A DNA stretch of 48,890 bases from Tildeniella nuda ZEHNDER 1965/U140 (GTDB lineage Bacteria > Cyanobacteriota > Cyanobacteriia > Leptolyngbyales > Leptolyngbyaceae), in NCBI GenBank assembly GCA_019358895.1, contig JAHHIG010000030.1, forward strand, positions 1 through 48,890, in the 5' to 3' direction. Both the position numbers and the translations under genes were made by a program. The notes under the pieces are model-generated. The model saw only the letters and a list, made by a program, of their open reading frames with translations, was not told where the DNA came from and did not search any database. Shown one piece after another: positions 22,100 through 43,508 of this stretch. Within the stretch, counting starts at the first letter, position 1. Each line of letters opens with the position of its first letter.

Positions 22100-22138
22100 A
22101 GCGTCACAGTTCACCACGAAGAATGTATTAATCGTTTT

Positions 22139-22573
22139 TTATGAATTTTCTTCGGCTTCCTCAGATCCCAGCAAAAAATCTTCTGCCGTCACAATCTTTA
22201 TGTTGCGAAATGGATTTAGAACAAGGAGGTCGTTGTCGCCGCTAATGATGTAATTGGCTTTTCCACTTAAAGCCAGCGACAAAACCATGTCATCTTTTGG
22301 GTCACGGCATACTTGCACCGTTTCAACTGGTTGGATCAGTACTATCCGCTCTATCAAACTTTCTAAAAACTCTTCTCGCTCTTCGCTGGTCACATAGCGA
22401 TCGAATTTACCCCGCCCAAGTACCTCGCTCAATTCTTCTAACAATTCAAGCGACGAAAGGACTTCACCATGATTCAAGGTGTATCGAAATGCTTTTGCAG
22501 GCGTACTATTTTTGAACAGTAATGCACTAATGATCAGGTTCGTATCCAGAATATAGCGGACTTTATTGCTCAT
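22139..22573 (-). CDS. PIN-domain protein, putative toxin of a toxin-antitoxin pair
   Basis: 144 residues. A PIN-fold RNase: the conserved acidic residues are in YILDTNLIISALLF near the start, CRDPKDDMVLSLAL in the middle, and IISGDNDLLVL later. It resembles the stand-alone PIN-family toxins typical of bacterial genomes (the COG1569 type). It overlaps the small gene upstream by 11 bp, as toxin-antitoxin partners do. Its position between mgsB and mgsC on the same strand makes it an intruder in the metabolic cluster. Toxicity is inferred. Confidence 0.85.
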   Translation of the reverse strand: MSNKVRYILDTNLIISALLFKNSTPAKAFRYTLNHGEVLSSLELLEELSEVLGRGKFDRYVTSEEREEFLESLIERIVLIQPVETVQVCRDPKDDMVLSLALSGKANYIISGDNDLLVLNPFRNIKIVTAEDFLLGSEEAEENS

Positions 22574-22912: not shown

Positions 22913-23590
22913 TTAATATTCTTGGTTGGCATCCGCATTCCAATGATAAAGCTGCTTGGCTGAGGCGATGCGTTTGAAGTCTTTGGGATTGTGGGTGAAA
23001 CCTGCTTTGGCGAGTAGCTCCCTAACCGTTTCATAATCGGCATCAGACATGGATTCCATCTGGGCATCGGCACCGAGCGATTTAATGGAACCGCGCACGT
23101 AGATGATGGCTTCGTAGAGGGAATCACCGAGAGCATCGCCTGCGTTGCCACAAATCACGATGCGCCCTGCCTGTGCCATGAACGCGGAGAAACTGCCGAC
23201 GCTGCCACCCACCACAATATCGGCTCCTTTAAGGGAAATACCACAGCGCAGACTGGCATCGCCATCAATGATGAGTAGTCCACCCTGGGCAGAGGCTCCA
23301 GCAGAGACGGAAGCAAAGCCCTTAACGTGGACTCGTCCAGACATCATGTTTTCGGCAACACCAGTACCGACATTACCTTGAATGGTGACGTTTGCCAGTT
23401 TATTCATACCAGCGGCGTAGTAGCCTGCATGACCGACGATTTCCACTTCAATGGGAGCATCTAAGCCTACTGCAATGTTATGAGCACCGTCAGGATTGAT
23501 GATATGGATATACCCGCTTGATGATTGATGGAGAAAGCGATTGACTTCACGTAGGGGCGTTTGAGCGAGGTCGAAGGTTACACCGTCCAT
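22913..23590 (-). CDS. mgsB: N-methylglutamate synthase GXGXG-domain subunit
   Basis: 225 residues. It is the C-terminal beta-helix domain of glutamate synthase (GXGXG) as a separate protein, with glycine-rich repeats such as AGYYAAGMNKLANVTIQGNVGTGVAENMMSG, GGLLIIDGDASLRCGIS and GRIVICGNAGDALGDS. It is structural and mediates subunit assembly. The start codon overlaps the stop of the upstream amidotransferase gene by 13 bp, so the two are co-translated. Downstream there is a 122-bp gap and then the toxin-antitoxin pair instead of mgsC. Confidence 0.85.
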   Translation of the reverse strand: MDGVTFDLAQTPLREVNRFLHQSSSGYIHIINPDGAHNIAVGLDAPIEVEIVGHAGYYAAGMNKLANVTIQGNVGTGVAENMMSGRVHVKGFASVSAGASAQGGLLIIDGDASLRCGISLKGADIVVGGSVGSFSAFMAQAGRIVICGNAGDALGDSLYEAIIYVRGSIKSLGADAQMESMSDADYETVRELLAKAGFTHNPKDFKRIASAKQLYHWNADANQEY

Positions 23591-24486
23591 ACATACATTT
23601 CCTCTGGTGCAGGTTCGTAGATATGAGCGTGGTTAATGTTTGGGAGATGGGCGAGAGAGCGGAATTCCGAGGCGATCGCCACATAATCATCCGTTTCAGC
23701 CACTACAGCAGGCTTACAGGCAAAAGCATCACGCACTAATGCTAATTGATTGGCGGTACCCATGAGAAAGGTATAGAAACCATCGAGCGCTTCAAAGCCT
23801 TTTTGAATGGCAGCTTTCAAATCATCCCCTTCTTGCATGCGCCATTCCAAAAAGCGGCAGGCGGCTTCGGTATCGTTGTCGGTTTCAAAGTGGATGCCGT
23901 GATGTTCAAGCTTGCGGCGAATTTCGTAGGGATTGGATAGGGAGCCGTTATGCACCAGACAGAAGTCTTCACCAGCGGTAAAGGGATGGGCGTGAGCGGG
24001 CGTGACTGCCGATTCCGTCGCCATGCGGGTATGACCCACCAGATGGGAACCTTGCAGGTGTTTGAACTGGTAGCGATCGGCAATGCTTGTCGGACTCCCA
24101 GTATCTTTGTACAGGTCGATCGCGCGTCCTGTCGATAGAAGATGGATTTGTGGATAGTGCACTTGCAACCATTGCTTAACTATATTGGGAGCCAGATCAG
24201 CGGTTAAAACTGCCTGATTCTCATGAATTTGGAGGTCAGGAGTTGTCTTGAAATGGGTTTGAAATGCCTGTGCGAGTTCCAACCAGTTGAAGTTTCCACC
24301 AGTATGAATGCTGCCAGCATAAAGACTATATTTGCGCTGATGGTCAGGGAGCGTTTCGGTAAAAACGGCGAGTCCGGCAGAATCAGGACCGCGTTGGCTC
24401 ATGCCGATGAGCATGGGCACCATTAGTTCACCGAGGGACGATCGCAGTGATGGATTTTTGATGAGTAGTCCGACAATGCCGCACAT
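23578..24486 (-). CDS. mgsA: N-methylglutamate synthase class II amidotransferase-type subunit
   Basis: 302 residues starting MCGIVGLLIKN. The N-terminal Cys2 is the nucleophile of class II glutamine amidotransferases. Supporting motifs are MSQRGPDSAGLAVF, HTRMATESAVTPAHAHPF, and FCLVHNGSLSNPYEIR. In N-methylglutamate synthase this subunit is thought to hydrolyse the gamma-glutamylmethylamide (a glutamine analogue). It is the first of a mgsA-mgsB pair and lies 85 bp downstream of the GmaS-like gene, across an imperfect hairpin. Confidence 0.85.
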   Translation of the reverse strand: MCGIVGLLIKNPSLRSSLGELMVPMLIGMSQRGPDSAGLAVFTETLPDHQRKYSLYAGSIHTGGNFNWLELAQAFQTHFKTTPDLQIHENQAVLTADLAPNIVKQWLQVHYPQIHLLSTGRAIDLYKDTGSPTSIADRYQFKHLQGSHLVGHTRMATESAVTPAHAHPFTAGEDFCLVHNGSLSNPYEIRRKLEHHGIHFETDNDTEAACRFLEWRMQEGDDLKAAIQKGFEALDGFYTFLMGTANQLALVRDAFACKPAVVAETDDYVAIASEFRSLAHLPNINHAHIYEPAPEEMYVWTV

Positions 24487-24571: not shown

Positions 24572-25900
24572 TTAGAAAAATTCTAAATACCGCTGCACTT
24601 CCCATTCAGAAACATGGCGCATATATTCGACCCATTCCATGCGCTTGAGGCTGATGAATTCGGTGGCGAGTGGTCCAAGAGCGTTGGTGATGATGGGATC
24701 GGCTTCGAGAGCGTCGATCGCCTCCTTCAAACTTTGGGGCAAGGTTTGAATACCTTTATCTGTGAGGTCTACCTCAGAAAGATCGTAGAGATTGATGTTG
24801 TGAGGTTCGCCTGGATCGAGTTCGTTTTCGATGCCATCAAGACCAGCAGCGATCGCGACGGCTGCGGCTAGATAGGGATTGCAGGAACCATCGGCAAGGC
24901 GAAATTCGAGCCGTCCACCAGGGATGCGTACCATGCTGGAGCGGTTGTTGTCGCCGTAGGTAATGTAAGCGGGTGCCCAGGTTGCGCCACTGAGCGATCG
25001 ACCGACCACTAAACGTTTATAGGAATTGATGGACGGCGCACAGATGGCAGTCAAGGCAGGCGCATGAGCTAATAACCCACCGAGGAAGTGATACGCGAGT
25101 TTGGATAATCCCAACTGGCGAGGATCGCTATCATCCGCAAAGAGATTAGAATTGCCATCGGACATGGACATATGCATGTGCATTCCAGTGCCTGTGCGGT
25201 TTGCAAAGGGTTTGGGCATGAAGGTCGCAATCAATCCCATCTCTTTAGCGATCTCGGAGGCAGCCATTTTAAAGAAAATGTAGCGATCGGCAGAAGTCAA
25301 GCAATCGGTGTAGGTGTAATTAATTTCAAACTGCCCGTTTGCATCTTCGTGATCAATCTGATACACATCAAAACCCGCCACTTGCAGGCTTTCCACCAGC
25401 TTTTCAACAAACGTACGACTGCGAGAGAGTCCCTTATAGTCGTAGCAGGGTTTTTCTAAGGTATCGGTGATATCGGCAGGAGCAATGCGACCTTGAGCAT
25501 CTTTTTGCAGCAAGCCAAACTCAGGTTCCAATCCCGTATAGAACGTCCAACCCTTTTGCTTGAGTCGTTCCAACTGCTGCTTCAAGACAAAGCGAGAATC
25601 ATACGGGTAGGGCTGTCCATCCACGTGCCCGACACAAACCATACGCGCGAAACCCGGCATCCAGGGAACGAGCGTTAAGGTTGATGGATCGCCTACTGCC
25701 ATAAAATCGTGACTATTCGGCTGTTGCGCCAAGCCCCAAACCGCAAACCCTGCAAACCCTGCACCGGGGTCGAGAATATCATCAAAATGGGACGCAGGCA
25801 CCGCTTTTGTTTTGGCAGTGCCGTGCATATCCACAAACTGCGCTAGGACGAATTTAACGTGATTGTCTGCCAAGAATTTTTTTGCCGTTTCTGGGGTCAT
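24572..25900 (-). CDS. gmaS: Type III-like glutamine synthetase, probable gamma-glutamylmethylamide synthetase
   Basis: 442 residues. A glutamine synthetase fold: [22 protein letters not shown] at the N-terminus, [24 protein letters not shown], the metal and ATP segments ANGQFEINY and [33 protein letters not shown] and [22 protein letters not shown]. Its resemblance to the GlnT/GmaS group and its place beside mgsABC and the sarcosine-oxidase-like subunits suggest that it makes gamma-glutamylmethylamide from glutamate, methylamine and ATP. The true substrate could instead be ammonia or another amine. It lies 85 bp before mgsA on the same strand. Confidence 0.8.
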
Positions 25901-25924: not shown

Positions 25925-26172
25925 CGGGAGTCAGGAGTAGGGATGGCAGGGGAAGCAGAAGAGGCAGAGGGGCAGGGGAAGTAGGGGAAGCAGAAGAGGC
26001 AGAAGAGGCAGAGGGGGCAGAGGAAGCAGGGGCACTTGGATTAACTCATAACTTTTAGCCTTTCTTCCAACTCAAATCTCACAATTCAAAACTCATAACT
26101 TTTATTCTTTATCCTTCATCCTTTAGCCTTTCTTTCAACTCAAATCTCACAATTCAAAACTCATAACCTTTA
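25925..26172. repeat. Simple-sequence and 51-bp direct repeats between gmaS and mgdD
   Basis: 25930-26035 is a purine-rich tract of AGGGGAAGCAGAAGAGGCAG-type units. At 26054-26104 and 26122-26172 a 51-bp unit (TTTAGCCTTTCTT, CAACTCAAATCTCACAATTC, AAAACTCATAACYTTTAT) is repeated with two differences and a 17-bp spacer. The last copy overlaps the mgdD 3' end and supplies its final codons and stop. This suggests a repeat insertion that separates the two halves of the cluster. Confidence 0.75.
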
Positions 26173-26819
26173 TCCTTTATCACTTCTTCTATACCGATCG
26201 CTCTACCTCCCATCTCTGACACGATCGCCCCTAATGTGCGCCATAGATATGCTCCAAAGGTGCCATCACACCAGAGGCGGTAGAACGGGTTGCCATTGCG
26301 ATCGCCAGGAATGATTGTAACAGCGACTCCTACCATTGACGTGATGAAGATGGGACGTTCTATCAATGATACAGCGCGAAAGTTAACGCTACAGGTTTGG
26401 AGTAGTAGTTCGTTAACATCTGCGCCACAGAGGACGATCGCGGCATCCTGACGCAAAACGGGATAGACTTTGGCGGGTGGTTGCTGGCAGTTTTCCATTA
26501 AGTGCGATGCAAATTGACTACGCAAACTGTCTTCAATGAAGAATTCTGTTAAACCAACACGGGCAATGATGGCACCATCGGGAAGAGAATTCCAGGTATT
26601 GGGGCGATCGGGTACTGCGACACCCTGACTCTCTAACCAATGGGCGGCGTTGGTTCCTTTGACACCGAAGCGGTTCAGGCAAGAAACATCAGCAATGCCT
26701 AAATGGGCGGCGATCGCCTCTTCGTTGGGCAATTTCACCAATGATGGCATTCCATTCAGATCGCGCCACGTTCCATCAAGGGATTGCAGCAAGTCGTGCA
26801 TAGGACTGAGGCGAATCAT
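26154..26819 (-). CDS. mgdD: N-methylglutamate dehydrogenase / sarcosine oxidase gamma-like subunit
   Basis: 221 residues. Matches the gamma subunit (SoxG type) of heterotetrameric sarcosine-oxidase-like enzymes: an N-terminal domain with LNRFGVKGTNAAHWLESQGVAVPDRPNTW, then GLTEFFIEDS, and a GcvT-like C-terminal region. The gamma subunit has no cofactor and packs against the alpha subunit. The start overlaps the mgdC stop by 4 bp (26816-26819). The 3' terminus lies in a 51-bp direct repeat, so its last residues may be repeat-derived. Confidence 0.85.
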   Translation of the reverse strand: MIRLSPMHDLLQSLDGTWRDLNGMPSLVKLPNEEAIAAHLGIADVSCLNRFGVKGTNAAHWLESQGVAVPDRPNTWNSLPDGAIIARVGLTEFFIEDSLRSQFASHLMENCQQPPAKVYPVLRQDAAIVLCGADVNELLLQTCSVNFRAVSLIERPIFITSMVGVAVTIIPGDRNGNPFYRLWCDGTFGAYLWRTLGAIVSEMGGRAIGIEEVIKDKGYEF

Positions 26820-29800
26820 ACTGCAACCTCCTCACGGTTTGGCATGGATTCTTTCTGGCGTAGATTACCAGGATCATAAAACGGGGTGGGACAGATGGTT
26901 GCAGTGACAAAGGAACCATTAGAGCGACGGATGGAAAGGCGATCGCCCACCGTTGCCAACTCTGGTTTCACATACGCTAAGCCAATAAATTTTTGCAGTG
27001 AGGGGCTGAAGGTGATACTGGTGATGCGACCTGCAATGTCACCGCGATCGATGATTAAATGACATTCCTGGGGTGGCATCCCTTCAAATGGCTCTAGCAT
27101 AACGCCTACTAATGTATGTTTAACCGGACGTTTTGCCATACTTTGCAAACTCCGTTGACCGATAAAAAATGGTTTATCCATCTTCACTGCCCATCCCAGA
27201 TTAGCTTCTCGCGGAGTGGTCAAACCATCGGTATCCTGTCCCACAATCAAGTGCCCTTTCTCCAATCGCAAGAGTCGCTGTGCTTCCACACCAAAAGGCG
27301 TGATATTATAGGCTGCACCTGCTTCTAGAAGGGCATCCCACAGGGCGATCGCGCAGTCTGCCGCTACATGGATCTCATAGCCCCATTCACCCACGAAACC
27401 AACGCGCATTAAAAGGGCAGAAATCCCGGCAACGGTTGCCTGACGGACACCGAGATAGGGAAATGCACTACTGGATAAATCTAAATCAGTAAGCGTGGTG
27501 AGCACTTCACGGGCGCAGGGTCCAGCCAAATTGATTGCCGATCGTGCCCCTGTCGTATTCACAATGCCGCAATCCATCTGCCACATGGTATTGAGGCGTG
27601 ATAGCTCACGATAAATAGTCGCGGCACCGGATGTCGTGGTCGTGAAGTAGAAATGCTCGGCTCCAAACCGCGCTACCACGCCATCATCGATAATTACACC
27701 TGTTTCATCTAGCATCAGGGCATAGCGTGACATCCCAATTTTCAGGTTAGCGTAGCGTCCTGTATAGACGCGCTCCAGAAACTCAGCCGCATCGGCACCA
27801 CGTATTTCCAGCTTGCCCAGCGTACCGACATCAATGATACCAACGTGAGTACGAACGGCGATCGCTTCTGATTGAATGCACTCCTCACGGCTTTTCCCGG
27901 TTTGCACATAGTATTCGGGTCGTCGCCAATTACCTGCCAGCATGAATTTTGCGTTCAATATAGTATGACGACTATTTAAAGGCGTTTGACGCTCAGGCGT
28001 AAATCCACGTCCTGCCAGATGGGAAAGAGGAACGGGATGGAAAAACGGTCGTGCGGTTGTGGTGCCGACTTCACCGGGTGCTTTACCTGTAATACGTGCC
28101 AAAATTCGTAGCGCGTTCATGTTGGAATGCTTGCCCTGGCTGGGTCCCATCCCTACAGTGGTATAGCGCTTTAATAGTTCAATGTTGTCGAATCCCTCCT
28201 GCGCTGCGTTGTAGAAATCCTTGAGCTGCAAATCTTCGTCAAAATCCACAAAGTTTTTGCCGTGAGGATGGGGGACGATCGCCCAGGGATGGGATTCGCC
28301 CTCATTCATAACCGCGATCCCAGACAAGTTGCCGTGTACATTCATCTGGGCTTCGTTGCTAACGTTGCCCGGGGGACTTCCCCCCTGCCAAGATGATTTC
28401 TTCGGCACAGCGACGCAGAAATCATCTTGTCCCCCGCTATGTGGGGTCTTAACTCCCCCACGCCCCCCGAAAGGTGCTGCTTGTATTGGTCTCAGCCTCT
28501 CGTCGATCGAGGTAAGCCGTGTAGACTGAAGGCTATTCCGCTCGGTGAAGGGGGTCTTAAAGCCTAGATGTACTGCTGCTGACATCCCAGCCCGATCGCC
28601 ATCCAACATTTTCTGCTCAAACTCAAAGATTCCATTCACTCGACCACAGGCGAAAACTCCTGCAGGCAGAACGTCCGGGATAAATTGCTGCAAGTGGTCA
28701 TCGAAGCACATCTTGGCACCCGCCTGATAGAGCAAATTTGCCGCTGGTGCCCAACCTACACTCATCACAATGCCATCACAGACGATCGTGCGTTTCTGTC
28801 CTACTTGCGGTTTGTCACCATCAAACGGACAAATCACCGCACTGGAAACACCATCGCCTGCTGGGTTTCGCTTTGCTTCGTAGATACAATATCCTGCGAA
28901 AATGGGAATACCGTGTAATTTCACGGCTTGCATTAGATCCGTTGTTGCGATCGTGGGACGCAGATCAACGATCGCCATCACAACAATTCCATGTGCTACC
29001 AGATCCAATGCCGCACGATAGCCGTCACTGTTTGCGACTAACACCACAGCCCGCTGCATGGGTTTGACGGCATAACGATAGATTAACCGTTGTGCCGCCG
29101 ATGCCAGCATTATGCCTGGGAGGTCATTATTATGGAAAACGGCAGGCTGTTCGTAGGCACCACTGGCAACAATCACTGCCTTTGCCCGCATCTTGGTAAG
29201 CCGATCGCGATCGACTAGGGGAACCCAATGATCGGCATAATAGCCTGCTGCTTCGGTTCCCAGGTACAAGCGAATGTTGGGATGGGATACGATCGCGTCC
29301 ATCATCTCACCCGTTTTCTTAGCGCGAGATGGATTGCCACCGAGTTGGTAAGTACCCGATCCACCCGCCCTTGCATTCTCATCAATAGTTACCACATCTG
29401 CGCCTGCATTTGCTGCTGATAGTGCTGCTGACAGCCCAGATACTCCAGCACCAATGACCAACACATCACAAAAATCGTAGCGTTTGAAAGTGCGAATGTG
29501 AGGAGTGGATGGATCGCCTTCGCCCAGCCCTGTCATACGGCGAATGAGGCGTTCCCAGAAAGGAAAAAGTTTTTTACCTAAAAAGGCTTTGTAGTAAAAA
29601 CCAACAGGCAGAAAGGGTGAAAAAAAGTTGAGAACGCTGGCACGATCGCCCATCACGCCACCGATCGTATTAATTGCGGTGAGCGACATTCCTGCTTCTA
29701 GCGGTGTGACATCTGCCCGCACATTCAGTTTCTCACCAGATTGCATCAACGTATTAATATCATGATTGGCAAAGCTCAACAGCCCACGCGGACGATGATA

Positions 29801-29959
29801 TTTAAAGCTGCGTCCCAAGATCCGCTGTCCTGCTGCCCACAAAGCACTGCTGATGGTATCACCTTGATACCCTCGAAATGACACCCCTTCAAAGGTAAAG
29901 TCGATCGGCTGAGTGCGATCGATCCATTCACCGGGAACAGGTGGCAATCGTTGACTCAT
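26816..29959 (-). CDS. mgdC: N-methylglutamate dehydrogenase / sarcosine oxidase alpha-like subunit
   Basis: 1047 residues. Domains in order: an N-terminal ferredoxin-like domain (about 1-100; IDFTFEGVSFRGYQGDTISSALWAAG), an NAD-type Rossmann fold with GAGVSGLSAAL at 170-180, and a C-terminal GcvT-like tetrahydrofolate domain (about 640-1040; GIIDVGTLGKLEIRGADAAEFLERVYTGRY). The FAD-bearing alpha subunit oxidises the N-methyl substrate and passes C1 to tetrahydrofolate. The protein is about 50 residues longer than I expect because residues 474-530 correspond to a palindromic repeat inserted in frame at about 28370-28540 (see finding). The start overlaps the delta gene by 4 bp, and the stop overlaps mgdD by 4 bp. 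Confidence 0.87.
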   Translation of the reverse strand: MSQRLPPVPGEWIDRTQPIDFTFEGVSFRGYQGDTISSALWAAGQRILGRSFKYHRPRGLLSFANHDINTLMQSGEKLNVRADVTPLEAGMSLTAINTIGGVMGDRASVLNFFSPFLPVGFYYKAFLGKKLFPFWERLIRRMTGLGEGDPSTPHIRTFKRYDFCDVLVIGAGVSGLSAALSAANAGADVVTIDENARAGGSGTYQLGGNPSRAKKTGEMMDAIVSHPNIRLYLGTEAAGYYADHWVPLVDRDRLTKMRAKAVIVASGAYEQPAVFHNNDLPGIMLASAAQRLIYRYAVKPMQRAVVLVANSDGYRAALDLVAHGIVVMAIVDLRPTIATTDLMQAVKLHGIPIFAGYCIYEAKRNPAGDGVSSAVICPFDGDKPQVGQKRTIVCDGIVMSVGWAPAANLLYQAGAKMCFDDHLQQFIPDVLPAGVFACGRVNGIFEFEQKMLDGDRAGMSAAVHLGFKTPFTERNSLQSTRLTSIDERLRPIQAAPFGGRGGVKTPHSGGQDDFCVAVPKKSSWQGGSPPGNVSNEAQMNVHGNLSGIAVMNEGESHPWAIVPHPHGKNFVDFDEDLQLKDFYNAAQEGFDNIELLKRYTTVGMGPSQGKHSNMNALRILARITGKAPGEVGTTTARPFFHPVPLSHLAGRGFTPERQTPLNSRHTILNAKFMLAGNWRRPEYYVQTGKSREECIQSEAIAVRTHVGIIDVGTLGKLEIRGADAAEFLERVYTGRYANLKIGMSRYALMLDETGVIIDDGVVARFGAEHFYFTTTTSGAATIYRELSRLNTMWQMDCGIVNTTGARSAINLAGPCAREVLTTLTDLDLSSSAFPYLGVRQATVAGISALLMRVGFVGEWGYEIHVAADCAIALWDALLEAGAAYNITPFGVEAQRLLRLEKGHLIVGQDTDGLTTPREANLGWAVKMDKPFFIGQRSLQSMAKRPVKHTLVGVMLEPFEGMPPQECHLIIDRGDIAGRITSITFSPSLQKFIGLAYVKPELATVGDRLSIRRSNGSFVTATICPTPFYDPGNLRQKESMPNREEVAV
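28367..28480. repeat. Palindromic element inside mgdC
   Basis: GGGGGAC (28371-28377) and GTCCCCC (28429-28435) flank an 11-bp perfect inverted pair, AAGATGATTTC (28390-28400) and GAAATCATCTT (28418-28428). GC-rich CCCCC blocks continue to about 28470. Such C-rich palindromes resemble intergenic dispersed repeats of cyanobacteria. Here it is in the coding region and remains in frame. Confidence 0.7.
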
Positions 29960-30216
29960 GCTGCCTCCTCACCCAAAAGATAGGTGCGAAGAATTTCATC
30001 GGTGATGGTATTGCGATCGACTAGAAACCAGGTATTGCTCGGCGTATGACACCACCATTCTTGCTTTACACCTGCTGCACCATTGCGATTAAAGATGTAA
30101 TCTGCCCATGCTGCATCATCTACTAATTGTGGATCGGTTATGGGACGCACTTCGCCGCCATACACAAATTCAGAAATCGATCTGGCACCGTTAATTGGAC
30201 AAACCATTAATTTCAT
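29956..30216 (-). CDS. mgdB: N-methylglutamate dehydrogenase / sarcosine oxidase delta-like subunit
   Basis: 86 residues starting MKLMVCPINGARSISEFVYGGEV. It matches the small delta (SoxD) subunit family. Classical SoxD holds a zinc with two Cys in CPxC, one His and one more Cys. Here the first motif reads CPING and the later site reads WWCHTPSNTWF, so at least two of the four ligands look absent. This pattern is what I recall of the delta subunits of N-methylglutamate dehydrogenase clusters, which favours the NMG interpretation over classical sarcosine oxidase. It overlaps mgdC by 4 bp. Confidence 0.85.
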   Translation of the reverse strand: MKLMVCPINGARSISEFVYGGEVRPITDPQLVDDAAWADYIFNRNGAAGVKQEWWCHTPSNTWFLVDRNTITDEILRTYLLGEEAA

Positions 30217-30268: not shown

Positions 30269-30598
30269 TTAAAAGGTTCCTAAGAGCGGTAACACCTTTT
30301 TCTTGAGTAGTTCAATCAAAACTGGCTCCACATACTCATATTCATCTGGAATATCTAAACAAATCACTCGTTTCTCATTGAGATAGCGCTGGAACTTTTT
30401 TGAGAGCTTACTTCGGTGTACTTTTTCCATCACAAAGATGATGTCTGCCCACTGAATAATTTCATGACCGAGTGGAACGTCTGCGTCCCGATCGATCCCA
30501 GCCGATTCGACTTCTAAACCCTCATAATACGAGAAAATTGCTTCAGCCGTTGGGCTACGTAGACGATTTTTGCCACACACAAAGAGCAATTTTTTCAT
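30269..30598 (-). CDS. Low-molecular-weight protein-tyrosine-phosphatase-like protein
   Basis: 109 residues from ATG 30598 (MKKLLFVCGKNRLRSP; an upstream ATG at 30616 is in frame). The phosphatase loop CX5R is present (CGKNRLR), and VMEKVHRSKL and CLDIPDEYEYVEP follow. The P-loop at the very N-terminus fits a short LMW-PTP family common in cyanobacteria. It interrupts the order mgdA-mgdB on the same strand, so it is likely to be co-transcribed, but it has no obvious link to methylamine metabolism. Confidence 0.8.
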   Translation of the reverse strand: MKKLLFVCGKNRLRSPTAEAIFSYYEGLEVESAGIDRDADVPLGHEIIQWADIIFVMEKVHRSKLSKKFQRYLNEKRVICLDIPDEYEYVEPVLIELLKKKVLPLLGTF

Positions 30599-30631
30599 GA
30601 GCCTCCCACCGTTCATGGGTATGCCTGACTT

Positions 30632-30940
30632 CTATTTCCAGCTAACAACTTCTGTAAAATGTTCAACGACGGGAAACGGATCATAAAAGTGATGGAGAAG
30701 CTGTTTCCATTTTTGATAGGTGGATGACTCCCGAAAGCCGATCATATGGTTTTCCAATGTCTGCCATCGCACCAACAGTAAATATTTCCCCGGCACTTCC
30801 AGACATTGATGGAGTTCATGGGAGTCATATCCTGGTATGGACGCAATTAAGACAGAAGCTTGCCTGAACGCAGTCTCAAACGCCTGCTCCAGACCACGTT
30901 TAACCATCAATATCGCCACCTCAAGCACCATAAAATCCAA
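30632..30940 (-). CDS. ABM-domain (antibiotic biosynthesis monooxygenase-like) protein
   Basis: 102 residues. A dimeric ferredoxin-like ABM fold with EVAILMVKRGLEQAFETAFRQASVLIASIPGYDSHELHQCLEVPGKYLLLVRWQTLENHMIGFRES. Proteins of this fold include quinol monooxygenases and stress-dabb relatives; the substrate cannot be told. It lies between mgdA and the PTP-like gene on the same strand. The 54-bp gap to mgdA is filled with a CTTCTGCC simple repeat, as at other cluster junctions. Confidence 0.8.
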   Translation of the reverse strand: MDFMVLEVAILMVKRGLEQAFETAFRQASVLIASIPGYDSHELHQCLEVPGKYLLLVRWQTLENHMIGFRESSTYQKWKQLLHHFYDPFPVVEHFTEVVSWK

Positions 30941-30994: not shown

Positions 30995-32236
30995 CTAATG
31001 TCCCACCGATGCGGCACCCTTTTCACCCACCAACGCATAGTTGGCAAAGCGATCGAGTGAAAAGTCTTCAATTAACTCATGAGTGCGATCGTTCGCTACC
31101 GTATATGCCATCGTCTTTCCCGCGACAGGCGTGGCTTTGAAGCCCCAGGTGCCCCAGCCAGAGTCGAGGTAGAAACCCTCGATCGCGGTCTTTCCCATAA
31201 TGGGGGCGAAATCTGGTGTCATATCTGCCATCCCTGCCCATTGCCGCACCACTTTGACGTGTGAAAGGAACGGAAAGAGTTCCAGCATATGAGCCGCCAA
31301 GCCTTCCACGAAATCGAGGGTCGATCGGGTGGAATGCAGTTCATAGGGGTCAAGCGACGCACCCATCACCAGTTCTCCCCGTGCCGTTTGGCTCACATAC
31401 ACATGCAAACTACCAGAGACAATGATGGGATCGAGCCATGCCTTCATTGGTTCGCTTACCATTGCTTGTAAGGGATGGATGTAGAGGGGCGATCGCAGTC
31501 CTACCATATCCAGCAACCGTGGCGTTGATCCGGCAACCGCGCACAACACTCGTGATGTGGCAATAGTGCCGCGTGAGGTTTTCACACCTGTGACACGACC
31601 AGATTTCACGTTGATACCTAAGACTTCCGTTTGCTGATGGATTTCTACACCCCGCTGATCAGCCCCACGCCCGTAGCCCCATGCCACTGCATCATGGCGG
31701 GCAATGCTTCCCGGTGCATGGTAGAGTGCGCCGAGGATAGGGGCATTGCCACCACAAGTAACATCCATATATGGACAGGCTTCTTGAACGGCATCAGCAT
31801 CCACCAATTCGCTGTCAATGCCGAAATGTTTGTTGACCTCCGATCGCCATCGCATCGTTCGCACCGACGCATCGGTATGTGCCAATGTGAAATGTCCGCG
31901 TGTGGCATAGAACACATTCAGATCAAAATCCTGTGATAAGTCCTGCCACAGCCGCACCGACTCATCGTAGAACTTCACGCCTTCGGGAGTGAGATAGTTA
32001 GAGCGAATAATCGTGGTGTTGCGTCCCGTATTACCACCACCGAGGTAGCCTTTTTCCAACACGGCAACATTGTGCATCCCGTGATCGCGCGCTAGATAGT
32101 AGGCGGCTGCGAGTCCATGACCACCTGCGCCAATGATCACCGCGTCGTAGCTCGACTTGAGGCGATCGTGCTGCCGAAACATGCGTGGTTCGGGGTATTT
32201 CTTAGAAAAGCCAAACTTTAGGAGACGCAAAGGCAT
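30995..32236 (-). CDS. mgdA: N-methylglutamate dehydrogenase / sarcosine oxidase beta-like subunit
   Basis: 413 residues. An FAD-dependent DAO-family oxidoreductase: the dinucleotide-binding GAGGHG is at 36-41 in YDAVIIGAGGHGLAAAYYLARDHG, followed by VLEKGYLGGGNTGRNTTIIRSNY, the segment where sarcosine oxidase beta subunits bind FMN covalently, and a C-terminal GFYLDSGWGTWGFKATPVAGKTMA. It would oxidise the N-methyl group at the FAD site. It is followed by purU upstream (10 bp away) and, out of usual order, by the ABM and PTP-like genes before mgdB. Confidence 0.87.
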   Translation of the reverse strand: MPLRLLKFGFSKKYPEPRMFRQHDRLKSSYDAVIIGAGGHGLAAAYYLARDHGMHNVAVLEKGYLGGGNTGRNTTIIRSNYLTPEGVKFYDESVRLWQDLSQDFDLNVFYATRGHFTLAHTDASVRTMRWRSEVNKHFGIDSELVDADAVQEACPYMDVTCGGNAPILGALYHAPGSIARHDAVAWGYGRGADQRGVEIHQQTEVLGINVKSGRVTGVKTSRGTIATSRVLCAVAGSTPRLLDMVGLRSPLYIHPLQAMVSEPMKAWLDPIIVSGSLHVYVSQTARGELVMGASLDPYELHSTRSTLDFVEGLAAHMLELFPFLSHVKVVRQWAGMADMTPDFAPIMGKTAIEGFYLDSGWGTWGFKATPVAGKTMAYTVANDRTHELIEDFSLDRFANYALVGEKGAASVGH

Positions 32237-33106: not shown

Positions 33107-33134
33107 CGGCTTTCCATCAGGAGACGTTAGTGAT

Positions 33135-33254
33135 TAGGACTTATGCAAAGATCCCCGACTTCTGTTGTAAAAGCTGGGCACATCGCATTACCGTCAGAGA
33201 AGTCGGGGATCTAAAAGCTTTGCGAGGATCTGAAAGCCTTGTGCTTGAGTCCTA
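33135..33254. repeat. MITE-like element between purU and the regulator
   Basis: The outer ends TAGGACTTATGCAAAG (33135-33150) and the complement-type CTTGTGCTTGAGTCCTA (ends 33254) are imperfect inverted repeats beginning with TA and ending with TA. A 15-bp perfect internal pair (AGATCCCCGACTTCT at 33149-33163 and its complement at 33198-33212) matches the palindrome at 2180-2212. It fills about half of the regulatory gap. Confidence 0.65.
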
Positions 33255-33345
33255 TTATCATGCCGTTTTGATTCATGTGTGTCAACTAATTTTCCTGCTA
33301 TTATGCAAATTAGCCAGAGCAAAGCGATCGCCTACGAGGTGAGTC

Positions 33346-33975
33346 ATGACGGAGGCTACGACCAGCAACCCCGAACAGCGCGTCACCGACCATACATTAG
33401 AGCGTTATGTGGGCAACACCATTCGGGATTTGCGGCAACGACATGGGCTGACGATCGCCGAAGTTGCTGAACAGAGCGGCATCTCGCGTGGGATGCTATC
33501 CAAAATCGAGAACGCGCAAACTGCCACCAGCCTGGAAACATTGGCTAGACTTGCTAATGCTCTCGGCGTGTCACTTGCCACACTCTTTCGTAACTACAAC
33601 ATTCCCACAGGCAGCGCTCAACTGGTCAAGCAAGGCGATGGGATGGAAGTAGTGCGTCGAGGTACAAAGTGCGGGCATACCTATCATTTGTTGGCATACG
33701 ACCAGGGACCCACGAAGCTCTTTGAGCCGTTTCTGATTACGATGGACGATGCCTCCGAGGTTTTCCCCACCTTTGAGCATCCCGGCACGGAATTCATTTA
33801 TATGCTGGAAGGCGCGATCGAATATCGTCATGGGCAATCCACATACCTTTTAGAACCAGGCGATTCCCTCACCTTTCGCGGTGACATTCCCCACGGTCCC
33901 GAAAAGCTTCTCACACTACCCATTCGCTTTCTCGCCATCATCTACTACTCTGTCTCACAAGTAGATTTGTCTTAG
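33346..33975 (+). CDS. XRE-family transcriptional regulator with cupin domain
   Basis: 209 residues. An N-terminal helix-turn-helix (about 20-75; GNTIRDLRQRHGLTIAEVAEQSGISRGMLSKIENAQTATSLETLARLANALGVSLATLF) is followed by a C-terminal cupin barrel (about 135-200; EHPGTEFIYMLEGAIEYRHG and LEPGDSLTFRGDIPHGP). Regulators of this architecture commonly sense a small metabolite near amine- and amino-acid-degrading operons. It is divergent from purU, separated by 239 bp including a repeat, so it is the best candidate for the cluster's regulator; the ligand might be methylamine, gamma-glutamylmethylamide or N-methylglutamate. The convergent GST gene follows 22 bp after its stop. Confidence 0.9.
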   Translation: MTEATTSNPEQRVTDHTLERYVGNTIRDLRQRHGLTIAEVAEQSGISRGMLSKIENAQTATSLETLARLANALGVSLATLFRNYNIPTGSAQLVKQGDGMEVVRRGTKCGHTYHLLAYDQGPTKLFEPFLITMDDASEVFPTFEHPGTEFIYMLEGAIEYRHGQSTYLLEPGDSLTFRGDIPHGPEKLLTLPIRFLAIIYYSVSQVDLS

Positions 33976-39230: not shown

Positions 39231-42200
39231 CTAAATTTGCTGTGCCCTTGTATCGGCAATGCAGTTTTCTAGTTTCTCACCCAGTAGTTGCACGTGAGGT
39301 TCTTTCAACATGCCCAGATGATTGCCAGGAATCAGAAAAACTTCTAAGCCGTTCTCTGCCAAACTCTGCCAACTCAATTTGTTGTCAGGAAGAGCGTGAT
39401 AGGCACTAGCAATTTCAGTTGCTTTGAACAAGGTAACGTGACCAGCATAGCTACGAATGCAGTAGCGAGCGGTTAACTCCTGGTTTTCTTGCTCATAGTT
39501 AAAGTCCATAATCTCGTCTGGTAAGGGCAGTCCCGCACGTTGAGAGATCTTAATTCGGACATGATAATAGAAATCCCACAGCGCTTGTGTGAGGTCATGC
39601 GTTCGCCAGCGAAGTTGTTCTTTGAGCGTGGGTAACAGGTAAGCGAAACCAGATTGCCTCATCTTATGCCAGTGTTTGGTTGCTGTATCACGAGCTAGAG
39701 AAGACTGAGCGGCGATCGGGGGATAGGTATCAATCAACCCCAACAAAGCAGTTTCTTGTCCTTGCCCTTTGAGTTGCTGTGCCATCTCATACGCAACCAA
39801 ACCGCCGAACGATATGCCTACTAATAAGTAGGGTCCTTGCGGCTGTAGTGTTCGCATCTGCTGAATATAGTGCGCCGCTAGATCTTCAACGCGATCGAGC
39901 GCGATCGCTTCTCCAGCAATTTGAGCTGCCAGACCATAGACGGGTCGTTCTGAATCGAGGTGCCGCACTAATGGTAAGTAGAACTCTAGTCCTCTACCAA
40001 GTACATGAATACAGAAGAGCGGCGGCTTATGACTCGCTTGGTTACCCGACTGTATGACCACTAGCGACGGACAGATAGGTGTTGGTTCCAGTTGCCGTAA
40101 AGCCTTTGCGAGTTCACTGATTGTTGGTGCTTGAAAAAGAGTAGACAATGGGAGACCCTTGCTACACCGCTCTTCAACTTGCGCCCAAACCCGCACGGCT
40201 GAAAGCGAATGTCCCCCTAACTCAAAAAAGTTATCGTAAACGCCGATCGGCTTGATTCTCAAAACGTCCTGCCAGATTTCGGTCAACTGACGTTCTAATT
40301 CATCTCTCGGTGCAACGAATGTACTTGCTACGGCATCCGTTGCACCAGTAGTCGCCGATACCAACAGGGTTTGGCGATCGTCCGTAAATGCCAACTCAGG
40401 AGTCGGTAACGCCTGACGATCGAGTTTGCCATTGGCGGTAACGGGTAGCTCTTTCAGCATGACGAAAGCTGAAGGCACCATGTACTCTGGCAGTTTTTCT
40501 TTTAAGCAGCGTCGCAACTCACCGATCGTCGGAGCAGGCTGCTGACGAGGAACAATGTAAGCAACCAGACGCTTTTCACCGGGCTGGTCTTCCCGTGCCA
40601 TGACCACAGAAACCTGAATGTCAGGATGTTGCGCCAGTACGGCTTCGATCTCGCCTAACTCAATGCGAAAGCCCCGAATCTTCACCTGATGGTCTATACG
40701 ACCCAGGAACTCGATATTGCCATCCGGGAAAAAGCGCGCTAAATCACCCGTGCGATACAGCCGCGCCTGTGGTGACTGATGAAACGGATGAGGAATAAAG
40801 CGTTCTGCTGTTTTGACTGGATCGGTGTATCCAGATGCCAGACAATCACCACCAATGTAAAGCTCTCCAGTCACCCCGATCGGACAGGGTTGCAAGCGAG
40901 CATCCAAAATGTAGTACTGGGCATTCTGAATCGGCTTGCCATAGGGAATGCTTGTCCAGTGAGGCTCGATCTGGTCAATGGGGTAGACGTTCGACCAGAC
41001 AGTCGCTTCTGTGGCACCTCCAAGCGAAATTACCTTGACTCCTGGAAACGTTGCTTTCACTGCGTTGGGCAATGTGACCGGAATCCAATCACCGCTCATA
41101 AAAACAAGTCGCAACGGGTTAGGTCGATCAGTTGCCGGAATGCTGGCAAAAAACGGTACTAGCTGTTGTAGTGCTGGTGGGGCAGAATCCCAGAAGGTAA
41201 TTGGCTCGTGACAAAGAATCTGTAGCAGAGCAGATGGATCACGAACCGTTTCGTTCGATACGACTCGGATAGAACCACCCGCTGCCAAAAGCCCAAAGAT
41301 GTCGTAGACCGATAGGTCAAAGCAGAGAGAAGTTATGAACAATACGCGATCGGAGGCGTTCACAGCAAAGGTGCGGTTGACCCACTCGATCAAATTGATG
41401 ACAGGCTGATGCCGAACAACGACCCCTTTCGGTGTTCCAGTCGAACCTGAGGTGAAAATCACGTAGGCAGTGTCATCAGGACTGTTTTGCCTGGGCAAAT
41501 TCTGTTGTGGCTGCTTGTACAGGTGGGATGCTTGCCAAACGTGCAGTCCTTTTGAAGACAGCGGCTTCGAGGCGCAGGCAGTCGGTGTTTCGATCGCGGC
41601 TCGATCCAAACAAATCAAATGCTCTAACTGAGGAAGTTGCGGCTGTAGCCCTTCAAACGTTGGTTGGTGACACGCCTGTGTGACAACCCAGTGAATATTG
41701 AGTGAGTCCAGAATCCACTGCACCCGCGCTTCAGGAAAGCTTGGTTCCAAAGGCACATAAGCACCTCCAGCTTTCAGAATTCCCAACAGAGCTGGAATCA
41801 TCTCTAAGCCACGGTTCAAGTAGACTCCAACAAAGGTACCAGCACCAACTCCTAAAGATTGAAGGTGATGAGCGAGTTGATTCGCCTGACGGTTAACGTC
41901 GCCATACGTTAGCTGTTGGTTTTCATAAACAACGGCGATCGCGTCAGGATTGCACACGACCTGAGCTTCAAACAGTTGATGTAAACAGACATCTTGCGCG
42001 TAGGGAACCGCTGTGTCGTTCCATGCCACCAGCAGTTGATGTTGTTCAGCTTCAGTCACCAGCGTTAGATCTGCCAGCGTTTGCTCTGGATGAGCAACCA
42101 TCCCTGCCAGCAATGTTTGCAGATGTCCCAGTAGTCGGACGATCGCTGCCCGGTCAAACCGAGAGCGATCGTAGGAAATTTTCAATAATAGTTCTGCATC

Positions 42201-43508
42201 CAGACAGCCAATCAATACCAGCGGTAACCCGGGTTGTTCATGGAGTTGAACGTGGCGGTTTTGCCAGTTGCCTCCCTGCTGTTGAAGCGTCGTGTTCAGC
42301 GCATAGTTTTCAAACACGACAATGCTCTCAAACAGAGCTACACCAGGAGGCACATCACTCCATGTCTGTACCTTAACCAGCGGTGTGTGTTCATAGTCAC
42401 GAACGGCTACGTGCTGCGATCGTAGCGCTTTCAGCCAGGGCAGCAAGGACGCTTCAGCAGGAACCTGGACTCTCACTGGTAGCGTGTTGATCAACAGTCC
42501 AATCATCGCTTCTGTTCCGCCCAGAGCCGAATGCCGACAGGCTCTAGTTGCCCCAAAAAGCACATCTTCCTCGCCGCTATAGCGACTTAAAAGCAGTGCC
42601 CAGGCACCTTGAACGATCGTGTTTGGTGTGATGTCGTGCTCTTTAGCGAGAGCTTGTAGCGCCGTTGTTAAGGCTGACGAGAGGCAAATCTGCTCTTCTC
42701 CATAGTCTGCCCGGTCAAGCAAGTGGCTAGAAGCTTGAATTGGAAGTAAAGGCGTGGGTGTGGAAAAGCCCTTGAGGAGGTGCTGCCAGAAGTCTTTCGC
42801 CTTCGCGAGATCCTGCTGCTGTAGCCACTCAATATAGTCTCGATACGGACGAGGGGTTGGCAGTGAAAGCGTTTGAGCCTGACAAACCGCTTCGTAAAGT
42901 GCGAAGACTTCTTTGAGTAGCCACGTAAACGAGCGTCCATCTAGCAAAATGTGGTGGAATGTCCAGACCAGCCGATACTCAGCGTCAGCTAACCTGAATA
43001 AAGCAAGCCGGATGAGAGGCGCATGAGTCAGATCAAAACCACGCTGGCGATCGCCTTGCAAGTATGTCTGATGGCGTTCCAGTTGCTCTATATCAGATAA
43101 TTCTCGCCAGTCGTATTGTGTCAGTGGCAGTTGTACGTCTTGATGCACTTGCTGCGATGGTTCATCTAGATCATTCCATCTAAAGCTGGTTCTTAAAATT
43201 GGATGCCGTTGTATAACTTGCTCCCAGGCTTGGATGAACGGTGCAATTTCAAGGTTTTCACGCAGCGTACAAACCATTTGTTCGATATCGATTCCAGACT
43301 GTTGCTCATGCAGGCTATGGAACAACATGCCCTGTTGCATCGGAGAGAGTGCATACGAAGCTTCTATCCTTTTGGACGTAATTGGCATGGGCGAGTCATG
43401 CAACAACGGTTCTAAAGCCTTCCCGATCGCGCCTGCTCTCTCTATTTTTGGCTCAGTGACCGATGCTTTAGCTGGTCGTAGTCGCTTAGAAGGATTGAAG
43501 AGCATCAT
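39231..43508 (-). CDS. Single-module non-ribosomal peptide synthetase (C-A-PCP-TE)
   Basis: 1425 residues. The condensation domain (about 45-480) has LSPMQQGMLFHSL at 54-66 and the active-site HHILLDG at 185-191. The adenylation domain (about 505-1035) has FTSGSTGTPKG at 685-695, FDLSVYDIFG, YRTGDLARF, GRIDHQVKIRGFRIELGEIE and LPVTANGKLDR. The carrier domain has GGHSL with the phosphopantetheine Ser1101. The thioesterase (about 1165-1415) has GISFG with Ser1233 and a final histidine in PGNHLGML. The selectivity positions read by eye begin D731, L732, Y735 with S near 805, and then the segment SLGGATEATVW; parts of this resemble cysteine-type codes but the substrate is uncertain. No loading module or tailoring gene is adjacent, so it is either trans-acting or an orphan. 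Confidence 0.92.
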   Translation of the reverse strand: MMLFNPSKRLRPAKASVTEPKIERAGAIGKALEPLLHDSPMPITSKRIEASYALSPMQQGMLFHSLHEQQSGIDIEQMVCTLRENLEIAPFIQAWEQVIQRHPILRTSFRWNDLDEPSQQVHQDVQLPLTQYDWRELSDIEQLERHQTYLQGDRQRGFDLTHAPLIRLALFRLADAEYRLVWTFHHILLDGRSFTWLLKEVFALYEAVCQAQTLSLPTPRPYRDYIEWLQQQDLAKAKDFWQHLLKGFSTPTPLLPIQASSHLLDRADYGEEQICLSSALTTALQALAKEHDITPNTIVQGAWALLLSRYSGEEDVLFGATRACRHSALGGTEAMIGLLINTLPVRVQVPAEASLLPWLKALRSQHVAVRDYEHTPLVKVQTWSDVPPGVALFESIVVFENYALNTTLQQQGGNWQNRHVQLHEQPGLPLVLIGCLDAELLLKISYDRSRFDRAAIVRLLGHLQTLLAGMVAHPEQTLADLTLVTEAEQHQLLVAWNDTAVPYAQDVCLHQLFEAQVVCNPDAIAVVYENQQLTYGDVNRQANQLAHHLQSLGVGAGTFVGVYLNRGLEMIPALLGILKAGGAYVPLEPSFPEARVQWILDSLNIHWVVTQACHQPTFEGLQPQLPQLEHLICLDRAAIETPTACASKPLSSKGLHVWQASHLYKQPQQNLPRQNSPDDTAYVIFTSGSTGTPKGVVVRHQPVINLIEWVNRTFAVNASDRVLFITSLCFDLSVYDIFGLLAAGGSIRVVSNETVRDPSALLQILCHEPITFWDSAPPALQQLVPFFASIPATDRPNPLRLVFMSGDWIPVTLPNAVKATFPGVKVISLGGATEATVWSNVYPIDQIEPHWTSIPYGKPIQNAQYYILDARLQPCPIGVTGELYIGGDCLASGYTDPVKTAERFIPHPFHQSPQARLYRTGDLARFFPDGNIEFLGRIDHQVKIRGFRIELGEIEAVLAQHPDIQVSVVMAREDQPGEKRLVAYIVPRQQPAPTIGELRRCLKEKLPEYMVPSAFVMLKELPVTANGKLDRQALPTPELAFTDDRQTLLVSATTGATDAVASTFVAPRDELERQLTEIWQDVLRIKPIGVYDNFFELGGHSLSAVRVWAQVEERCSKGLPLSTLFQAPTISELAKALRQLEPTPICPSLVVIQSGNQASHKPPLFCIHVLGRGLEFYLPLVRHLDSERPVYGLAAQIAGEAIALDRVEDLAAHYIQQMRTLQPQGPYLLVGISFGGLVAYEMAQQLKGQGQETALLGLIDTYPPIAAQSSLARDTATKHWHKMRQSGFAYLLPTLKEQLRWRTHDLTQALWDFYYHVRIKISQRAGLPLPDEIMDFNYEQENQELTARYCIRSYAGHVTLFKATEIASAYHALPDNKLSWQSLAENGLEVFLIPGNHLGMLKEPHVQLLGEKLENCIADTRAQQI

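Follow-up and report, generated by a model that had tools for sequence, protein, structure and literature searches.

A candidate XRE-cupin repressor of methylamine use in a cyanobacterium, with a predicted operator array entered by a hairpin repeat

A range of comparative data points to a local repressor of the XRE-cupin type, dedicated to methylamine use via gamma-glutamylmethylamide and N-methylglutamate, on a 48,890-nucleotide stretch of the Tildeniella nuda ZEHNDER 1965/U140 genome (hereafter the window, meaning the whole stretch analyzed). We consider it probable, with real room for doubt, that this repressor uses an operator array of 20-bp pitch, is released by an amine or a gamma-glutamylamide, and has had its promoter region entered later by a repeat. 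Along the divergent promoters, TTC-N7-GAA-type dyads recurring at 20-bp intervals, or roughly two turns of the helix, would each be occupied by a dimer of the regulator. The promoter of the purU-mgd-gmaS-mgs genes would be closed by O3 over the −35 box, O2 over the −10 box, and O1 past the start, and the regulator's own promoter by O4 over its −10 box; binding of the ligand in the cupin would release the repressor. The later insertion of a hairpin repeat between the operon −10 box and purU would have retained the promoter, O3, and O4 while cutting a weak O2 in two, displacing what is left of O1 by about 120 bp, and becoming a structured 5' leader.

The window holds a full N-methylglutamate set (gmaS, mgsABC, and mgdABCD), in which mgdD is assigned by position and homology only. 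The cluster lies on the minus strand, is presumably a single transcript, and opens with purU, a formyltetrahydrofolate deformylase gene (33106-32246; TIGR00655, 367 bits against a cut-off of 285.95). There follow, in order, mgdA (SoxB-like; 30995-32236), an ABM-domain gene, a phosphatase-like gene, mgdB (SoxD-like; 29956-30216), mgdC (SoxA-like; 26816-29959), a probable mgdD (26154-26819; in the SoxG position, homologous in relatives, and unmatched in Pfam and NCBIfam), gmaS (type III glutamine synthetase-like; 24572-25900; TIGR03105), mgsA (class II glutamine amidotransferase; 23578-24486), mgsB (GXGXG; 22913-23590), a PIN-domain gene, and mgsC (glutamate synthase domain; 20738-22117). Of the two genes that separate mgdA from mgdB (30269-30940), the ABM-domain gene is matched in all five congeners and the low-molecular-weight phosphatase-like gene in three (L023, L024, and L027); the PIN-domain gene between mgsB and mgsC occupies 22139-22573. 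Elsewhere in the window, 39231-43508 encodes a single-module non-ribosomal peptide synthetase (condensation, adenylation, carrier, and thioesterase).

The first-pass annotation had described an XRE-cupin regulator diverging from purU, and profile searches bear this out. The regulator gene (33346-33975, plus strand, ATG start) encodes 209 amino acids with the two domains that define the class, an N-terminal Cro/C1 helix-turn-helix (residues 26-79; HTH_3, 63.1 bits, cut-off 23) and a C-terminal small cupin (residues 137-198; Cupin_2, 42.6 bits, cut-off 27.2). The host genome is cyanobacterial, and the regulators closest to the window's come from Stenomitos and Leptolyngbya. Cupin residues H145, E149, and H183 are the same in all 49 sequences of an alignment covering the window and 48 of the 80 loci described below, a pattern suggestive of a metal site; all three fall within confident blocks of a structure model with a mean pLDDT of 82.8 overall and a pTM of 0.56. 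The solved chains that match both domains are 1y9q, a Vibrio cholerae XRE-cupin, and the HppE epoxidases (E 1.7e-14 and 9.3e-5), which Foldseek places at rank 1 and ranks 2-17, respectively. Against the model, 1y9q aligns over 166 residues at 27% identity (VIA; Z 12.7, rmsd 21.7) and HppE 1zz9 over 179 residues at 21% identity (VIA; Z 11.9, rmsd 13.8); given these rmsd values, the packing of the domains is unmatched with either. HppE, unlike the regulator, is an enzyme, and its iron ligands share the H-x3-E..H spacing of H145/E149/H183. Ratios of dN/dS, rough where several dS values lie near or above 1, are 0.033-0.043 for the regulator against three congeners and 0.022-0.100 for purU, mgdA, gmaS, mgsA, and mgsB (mgsC lies outside the compared DNA), and by this measure the regulator and the five enzymes tested stay under purifying selection. 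The regulator reading frame is broken by an in-frame stop in L034:10001-10600 and lies in two pieces in G008:C8:31781-32304.

The earlier suggestion that this protein regulates the methylamine cluster is supported by comparison across genomes. Bacterial and archaeal genomes scanned with the regulator alone yielded 251 relatives, of which we kept the best 80 (65-91% identical). In 70 of these best 80 loci purU or mgdA diverges from the regulator at a distance of 98-496 bp, so that the class habit of lying beside a metabolic target is seen here too, provided that the cluster is indeed the target. This pattern supports the XRE-cupin as a dedicated regulator of the cluster. Among the ten remaining loci, contigs end less than 180 bp from the regulator in L029 and L033; L088 has mgsABC beside the regulator, L100 has gmaS, and in L094 gmaS-mgs lies about 5.5 kb away; L037 and L039 carry a different cluster, discussed below; and around the regulators of L087, L090, and L095 the available DNA shows none of the pathway genes, L087 offering only a 27% GCV_T protein match. 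A census of 58 genomes (the window's own and relatives) found the regulator (E < 1e-50) in 16, including G008 with its two pieces, mgdC (E 1e-150 or better) in 15, and both in 12. The regulator occurs without mgdC in G008, G023, G032, and G045. Three of the 15 mgdC genomes have no detected regulator (G007, G014, and G041), two of which (G007 and G014) are less than 90% complete: the G007 contig ends inside mgdC and so includes no gap, and that of G014 starts 179 bp before mgdA, a stretch in which no site of 9 or more appears and beyond which a regulator may still lie. Of the six other genomes of the window's genus, five have the regulator gap (L023-L027) and the sixth has no regulator. A regulator tree of 65 of the 80 loci plus the window gathers the cyanobacterial rows together except for one weakly placed row, L044.

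The gaps between regulator and cluster share a dyad. From 81 gaps we dropped nine (L029, L033, L037, L039, L087, L088, L090, L094, and L095), leaving 72 usable, and removed 13 of these as near-copies, leaving 59 non-redundant gaps. TTC-N7-GAA occurs in 48 of the 59, against a mean of 4.5 and a maximum of 10 in dinucleotide shuffles, and the stricter WTTC-N7-GAAW in 41, against 1.7; because the dyad was named after the gaps had been read and the 59 gaps share descent, these and the other shuffle figures overstate independence. Other spacings of the dyad, from N0 to N15, occur in 1-8 of the 59 gaps, inside the shuffle range, and 46 of the 53 gaps outside the window's genus carry TTC-N7-GAA. When one mismatch is allowed and no matrix is used, 23 pairs of sites lie exactly 20 bp apart (shuffle mean 0.5), 16 lie 40-42 bp apart, and 34 lie 60-62 bp apart. 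The predicted sites thus form arrays of 20-bp pitch over both divergent promoters in relatives, the best of which hold four sites (at 2, 22, 42, and 62 in L032 and at 16, 36, 56, and 76 in L036). No predicted site of 6 or more appeared where examined before L088, L090, and L094, or in the 153-174 bp before L029 and L033, all of which stand outside the 59 gaps.

Within the window, the array appears in reduced form. The shared intergenic region (33107-33345) is 239 bp long; in five congeners the corresponding spans between matches measure about 125-194 bp. Exact TTC-N7-GAA is missing from 11 of the 59 gaps, those of the window, L025, L026, and L027 among them, and all six gaps of the window's genus carry, at O3, the asymmetric TTC-N7-TCAA, a form found in 19 of the 59 gaps (shuffle mean 1.4, maximum 5). 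The window's O3, TTGATTCATGTGTGTCAACTA (33268-33288), is the best match in the whole window to an operator matrix trained without the window's genus (11.6; the next best scores 9.4), and it is this matrix that links the clear proteobacterial dyad to O3. Genome-wide, O3 has one exact match, itself, and two with two mismatches. O4 (33288-33308; matrix 6.9) lies exactly 20 bp from O3. The O2 position is split (left half 33127-33136, right half 33258-33268), and O1 (33110-33129) would be a degenerate remnant, assigned by eye on the alignment. In the window's genus the case for an operator is therefore carried by the asymmetric O3 and the weaker O4; the predicted array is well supported in relatives and reduced here.

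The predicted sites coincide with likely promoters. A putative sigma-70 promoter for the purU-mgd genes lies on the minus strand at 33285-33257 (TTGACA, 33285-33280; a 17-bp spacer; CATGAT, 33262-33257), matching 10 of 12 bases in an independent promoter scan, with its −35 box inside O3 and its −10 box in the right half of O2. A similar −10/−35-like pair recurs at one spacer in 17 of the 59 gaps (shuffle mean 0.0) and at the next longer spacer in 7 (shuffle mean 0.03; 30 shuffles each). For the regulator, the likely element is an extended −10-like TGCTATTAT (33296-33304, plus strand), which O4 overlies and which is identical in four congeners and differs by one base in L024. We gave no weight to a further promoter-like match, 9 of 12 bases on the plus strand (33230-33258), that arises where the right end of the repeat joins its flank; 0.3 such matches would be expected by chance. 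Binding across the predicted array would close both promoters, and by analogy with the XRE-cupin family the regulator may bind it and repress.

Could the regulator instead activate, as TmaR does in Ruegeria pomeroyi? In Methyloversatilis universalis, a regulator co-clustered with the pathway, presumed from the related M. discipulorum locus L102 to be of the XRE-cupin family, rises 6-10-fold together with the pathway genes on methylamine, according to the part of PMC5023235 that concerns it. A joint rise is also what an autoregulated repressor would display on release. Activation is quite unlikely in our judgment, for the predicted sites cover the operon −35 box, −10 box, and start rather than the region upstream, and the Pseudomonas aeruginosa XRE-cupins described in sections of PMC7901475 are local inhibitors of their neighbors, with three motifs determined, all palindromic.

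A somewhat unlikely alternative is that the dyads belong to another factor, or reflect promoter constraint, and that the XRE-cupin acts elsewhere. O2 and O3 overlap the −10 and −35 boxes, the right half of O3 doubles as the operon −35 box, which constrains sequence by itself, and the window has no exact TTC-N7-GAA; the pairs at 40-42 and 60-62 bp, however, are left unexplained by a single promoter. G041 (L157:8180-9102) keeps O3 and O4 20 bp apart before mgdA with no regulator detected; a methyltransferase ORF (Methyltransf_11, 54.8 bits) stands at the regulator's place, and gmaS, mgdC, and mgdD match in pieces. These sites may record a recent loss of the regulator or may be used by another factor. 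Against another owner, the sites track the regulator across two phyla, and a site of the O3 form is kept before the unrelated cluster of L037 (13.2) and L039 (16.4). NtcA in particular was rejected as the owner, since its box, GTA-N8-TAC, is absent from the six gaps of the window's genus.

Binding by the XRE-cupin regulator remains our preferred account of the dyads, and its predicted array has been entered by a repeat. The first-pass annotation had placed a MITE-like element of 120 bp in half of the promoter region, and so it proves: a 121-bp insertion (33137-33257, with TTA kept once) fills about 51% of the 239-bp gap. The five congeneric gaps (L023-L027) are free of it, three reading AGTGACTATCATG and two AGTGCTTATCATC or AATGCTTATCATG in alignment, and the window reads AGTGATTA at the same point, then 121 extra bases, then TCATG. 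The repeat has a perfect 7-bp inverted pair at its ends, TAGGACT (33135-33141) and AGTCCTA (33248-33254), and an inner hairpin with perfect 15-bp arms, AGATCCCCGACTTCT (33149-33163) and its complement (33198-33212). The pattern TTAGGACTTAYGCA matches nine places in the genome, including the window copy (the others have C at Y), the inner arm occurs exactly at 101 places (52+49), and both controls, the former a reversed pattern, return 0; the repeat is therefore not a product of chance. It has the marks of a MITE: it is short, bears terminal inverted repeats, overlaps no ORF of at least 80 amino acids, and exists in many genome copies, which we define from the window's own genome and take to be the cyanobacterial MITE-like hairpin repeats. 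A second AGATCCCCGACTTCT hairpin, with arms 3 bp apart, lies at 2180-2212; when the window was scanned for the outer end at up to three mismatches, the copy at 33134 alone came up.

The ends of the window copy, GGACTTATGCA and TGCTTGAGTCC, place it in a family with inverted ends GGACTTACGCA, varied hairpin interiors, many copies, and an apparent short target duplication. We sampled 20 distinct two-ended copies of 85-125 bp, pairing only copies of 60-200 bp, among which no insertion-sequence partner was found. A 5-bp flanking word, the best of 64 word lengths and registers, is shared with a mean identity of 0.75 across the 20 copies, compared with 0.28 for control pairs that combine the flanks of two different copies (0.25-0.31 across the 12 registers listed); in that best register, 14 of 20 copies share at least four of the five bases. 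The family's target duplication would thus be about 5-7 bp, and a TA duplication of the Tc1/IS630 type was rejected. The earlier description of the ends as TA-bounded is literally true, but the TA belongs to the repeat ends and is not the family's target duplication. The window copy is longer (116 bp between GGACTT and GAGTCC, against 93-110 in the other 19), has an atypical right end, and lacks a clear duplication, its flanks sharing only TTA/ATT; loss of a few bases at the odd right end would explain the missing duplication. The L023 and L026 gaps bear other hairpin-like inserts between O4 and the regulator start, from which it seems that the gap has been entered more than once in the window's genus.

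As to what the insertion changed, it sits directly past the operon −10 box and leaves the promoter, O3 (11.6), and O4 (6.9) in place, while splitting the O2 position and moving what remains of O1 some 120 bp farther from the promoter. The possibility, raised earlier, that the repeat carries the operator was rejected: it contains no matrix site of 3 bits or more, five congeners do without it, and O3 and O4 lie outside it. The companion idea, that it disrupts the operator, holds in part. Among the predicted positions O2 is indeed split, but O2 is a minor site: its joined flanks score only −0.7, and the congeners score 9.8, 4.3, 2.6, 0.5, and −9.1, so that destruction of a good operator was dropped as an explanation. 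For O1, the positions tried give 5.4 in L026 and negative scores in the other congeners. Destruction of the promoter is likewise unsupported, as the 10 of 12 sigma-70 match is kept.

With its predicted start at the repeat's edge, the operon transcript would carry the repeat as its 5' leader, and the repeat might then be a working control element whose hairpin attenuates or stabilizes the message. The leader strand folds at −52.9 kcal/mol, a value that none of 200 shuffles reached (−36.9, sd 4.0; z −3.95), and the hairpin-like inserts of L023 and L026 show such elements elsewhere in the same gap. We nonetheless think leader control unlikely: no GC-rich stem with a 3-8 loop and T run was found in the leader, which disposes of the repeat as a terminator; five congeners have the same cluster without the repeat; and arms present at 101 genome places mean that the fold is not special to the purU gap. 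Because the promoter, O3, and O4 are kept and O2 is weak in the genus, the effect on expression is likely modest, with the repressor held mainly by O3 and O4 and a strongly folding leader added.

The second gene context bears on the ligand. In L037 (6460-9827) and L039 (6493-9855), regulators 84% and 79% identical to the window's diverge from a cluster of a desaturase-like protein, an alpha/beta hydrolase, and a GlnIII-type enzyme. Gene lengths and distances indicate that L039 is very probably G023 and L037 G032, making two cases rather than four. In the regulator tree both are nested among those of cyanobacterial methylamine clusters (98/86 with L041). In G023 and G032, which are 99% and 85% complete, neither mgdC (E 1e-150) nor mgsC (E 1e-60) was detected. 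The GlnIII-type enzyme is 45% identical to GmaS, an identity from which its substrate is unreadable, because paralogues away from the regulator reach 48% in G023 and 49% in the window's genome. What is common to both contexts is possibly a gamma-glutamylamide synthetase, and the desaturase-hydrolase-GlnIII cluster is possibly an undescribed amine pathway.

That the ligand is N-methylglutamate or a later pathway product is, on balance, decidedly improbable. The idea draws on TmaR of R. pomeroyi, an AraC-type activator of the same pathway that, in the account of it in PMC13390433, answers to a catabolite beyond methylamine, no methylated amine being its effector. Against it stand G023 and the 85%-complete G032, which keep the regulator and an O3-like site facing a GlnIII-type enzyme akin to GmaS; retention of the regulator where mgdC and mgsC go undetected favors an amine or a gamma-glutamylamide over N-methylglutamate.

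A regulator of this kind has clear counterparts elsewhere. It resembles Pseudomonas PauR, PsdR, ErfA, PA0535, and DbuR in domain order and in lying beside its metabolic target, as those proteins are characterized in the relevant portions of PMC7901475 and PMC12724383; the inferred target here is a methylamine cluster. The Pseudomonas proteins have palindromic promoter sites in the same accounts, whereas the dyad here is predicted. The PsdR site given in an excerpt of PMC10965056 is TTAAG-N5-CTTAA, unlike TTC-N7-GAA, and DbuR is assigned one 20-bp palindrome, AATTCTCATATATTAGAATT, in a section of PMC12724383, in contrast to the up to four predicted sites of 20-bp pitch here. PuuR and PauR act on the gamma-glutamylation of polyamines, in the words of one part of PMC7901475. 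Escherichia coli PuuR offers a further likeness as an XRE-cupin tied to a glutamine-synthetase-like gamma-glutamyl-amine synthetase, that for putrescine; the regulator's best NCBIfam match is indeed NF007408 (PuuR), at 50.6 bits, below the equivalog cut-off of 211, and PuuR deals with putrescine enzymes whereas the window's regulator adjoins methylamine enzymes. TmaR controls the gmaS-mgs and mgd operons with an AraC-type fold unrelated to XRE-cupin, as far as a portion of PMC13390433 describes it; that another kind of regulator governs the pathway in R. pomeroyi counts against our reading.

A bolder and doubtful extension would make this a general XRE-cupin switch for small-amine gamma-glutamylation in cyanobacteria and proteobacteria, sensing an amine or a gamma-glutamylamide and acting through a four-dimer array of 20-bp pitch. 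It would have moved from the methylamine cluster to the undescribed desaturase-hydrolase-GlnIII pathway, and in the window's species the repeat-broken array would make the methylamine operon leakier than those of relatives. Searches among open-licence PMC papers brought up no title on such a regulator or on a cyanobacterial methylamine pathway; accounts of either may be in print elsewhere.

The regulator of the window is a candidate methylamine-pathway regulator, with a precise predicted operator, for cyanobacteria and many betaproteobacteria, and would differ in kind from the AraC-type TmaR. The second gene context reduces the range of likely ligands. The natural insertion and the five uninterrupted congeners form a ready-made comparison of what follows when a repeat lands among predicted operators.
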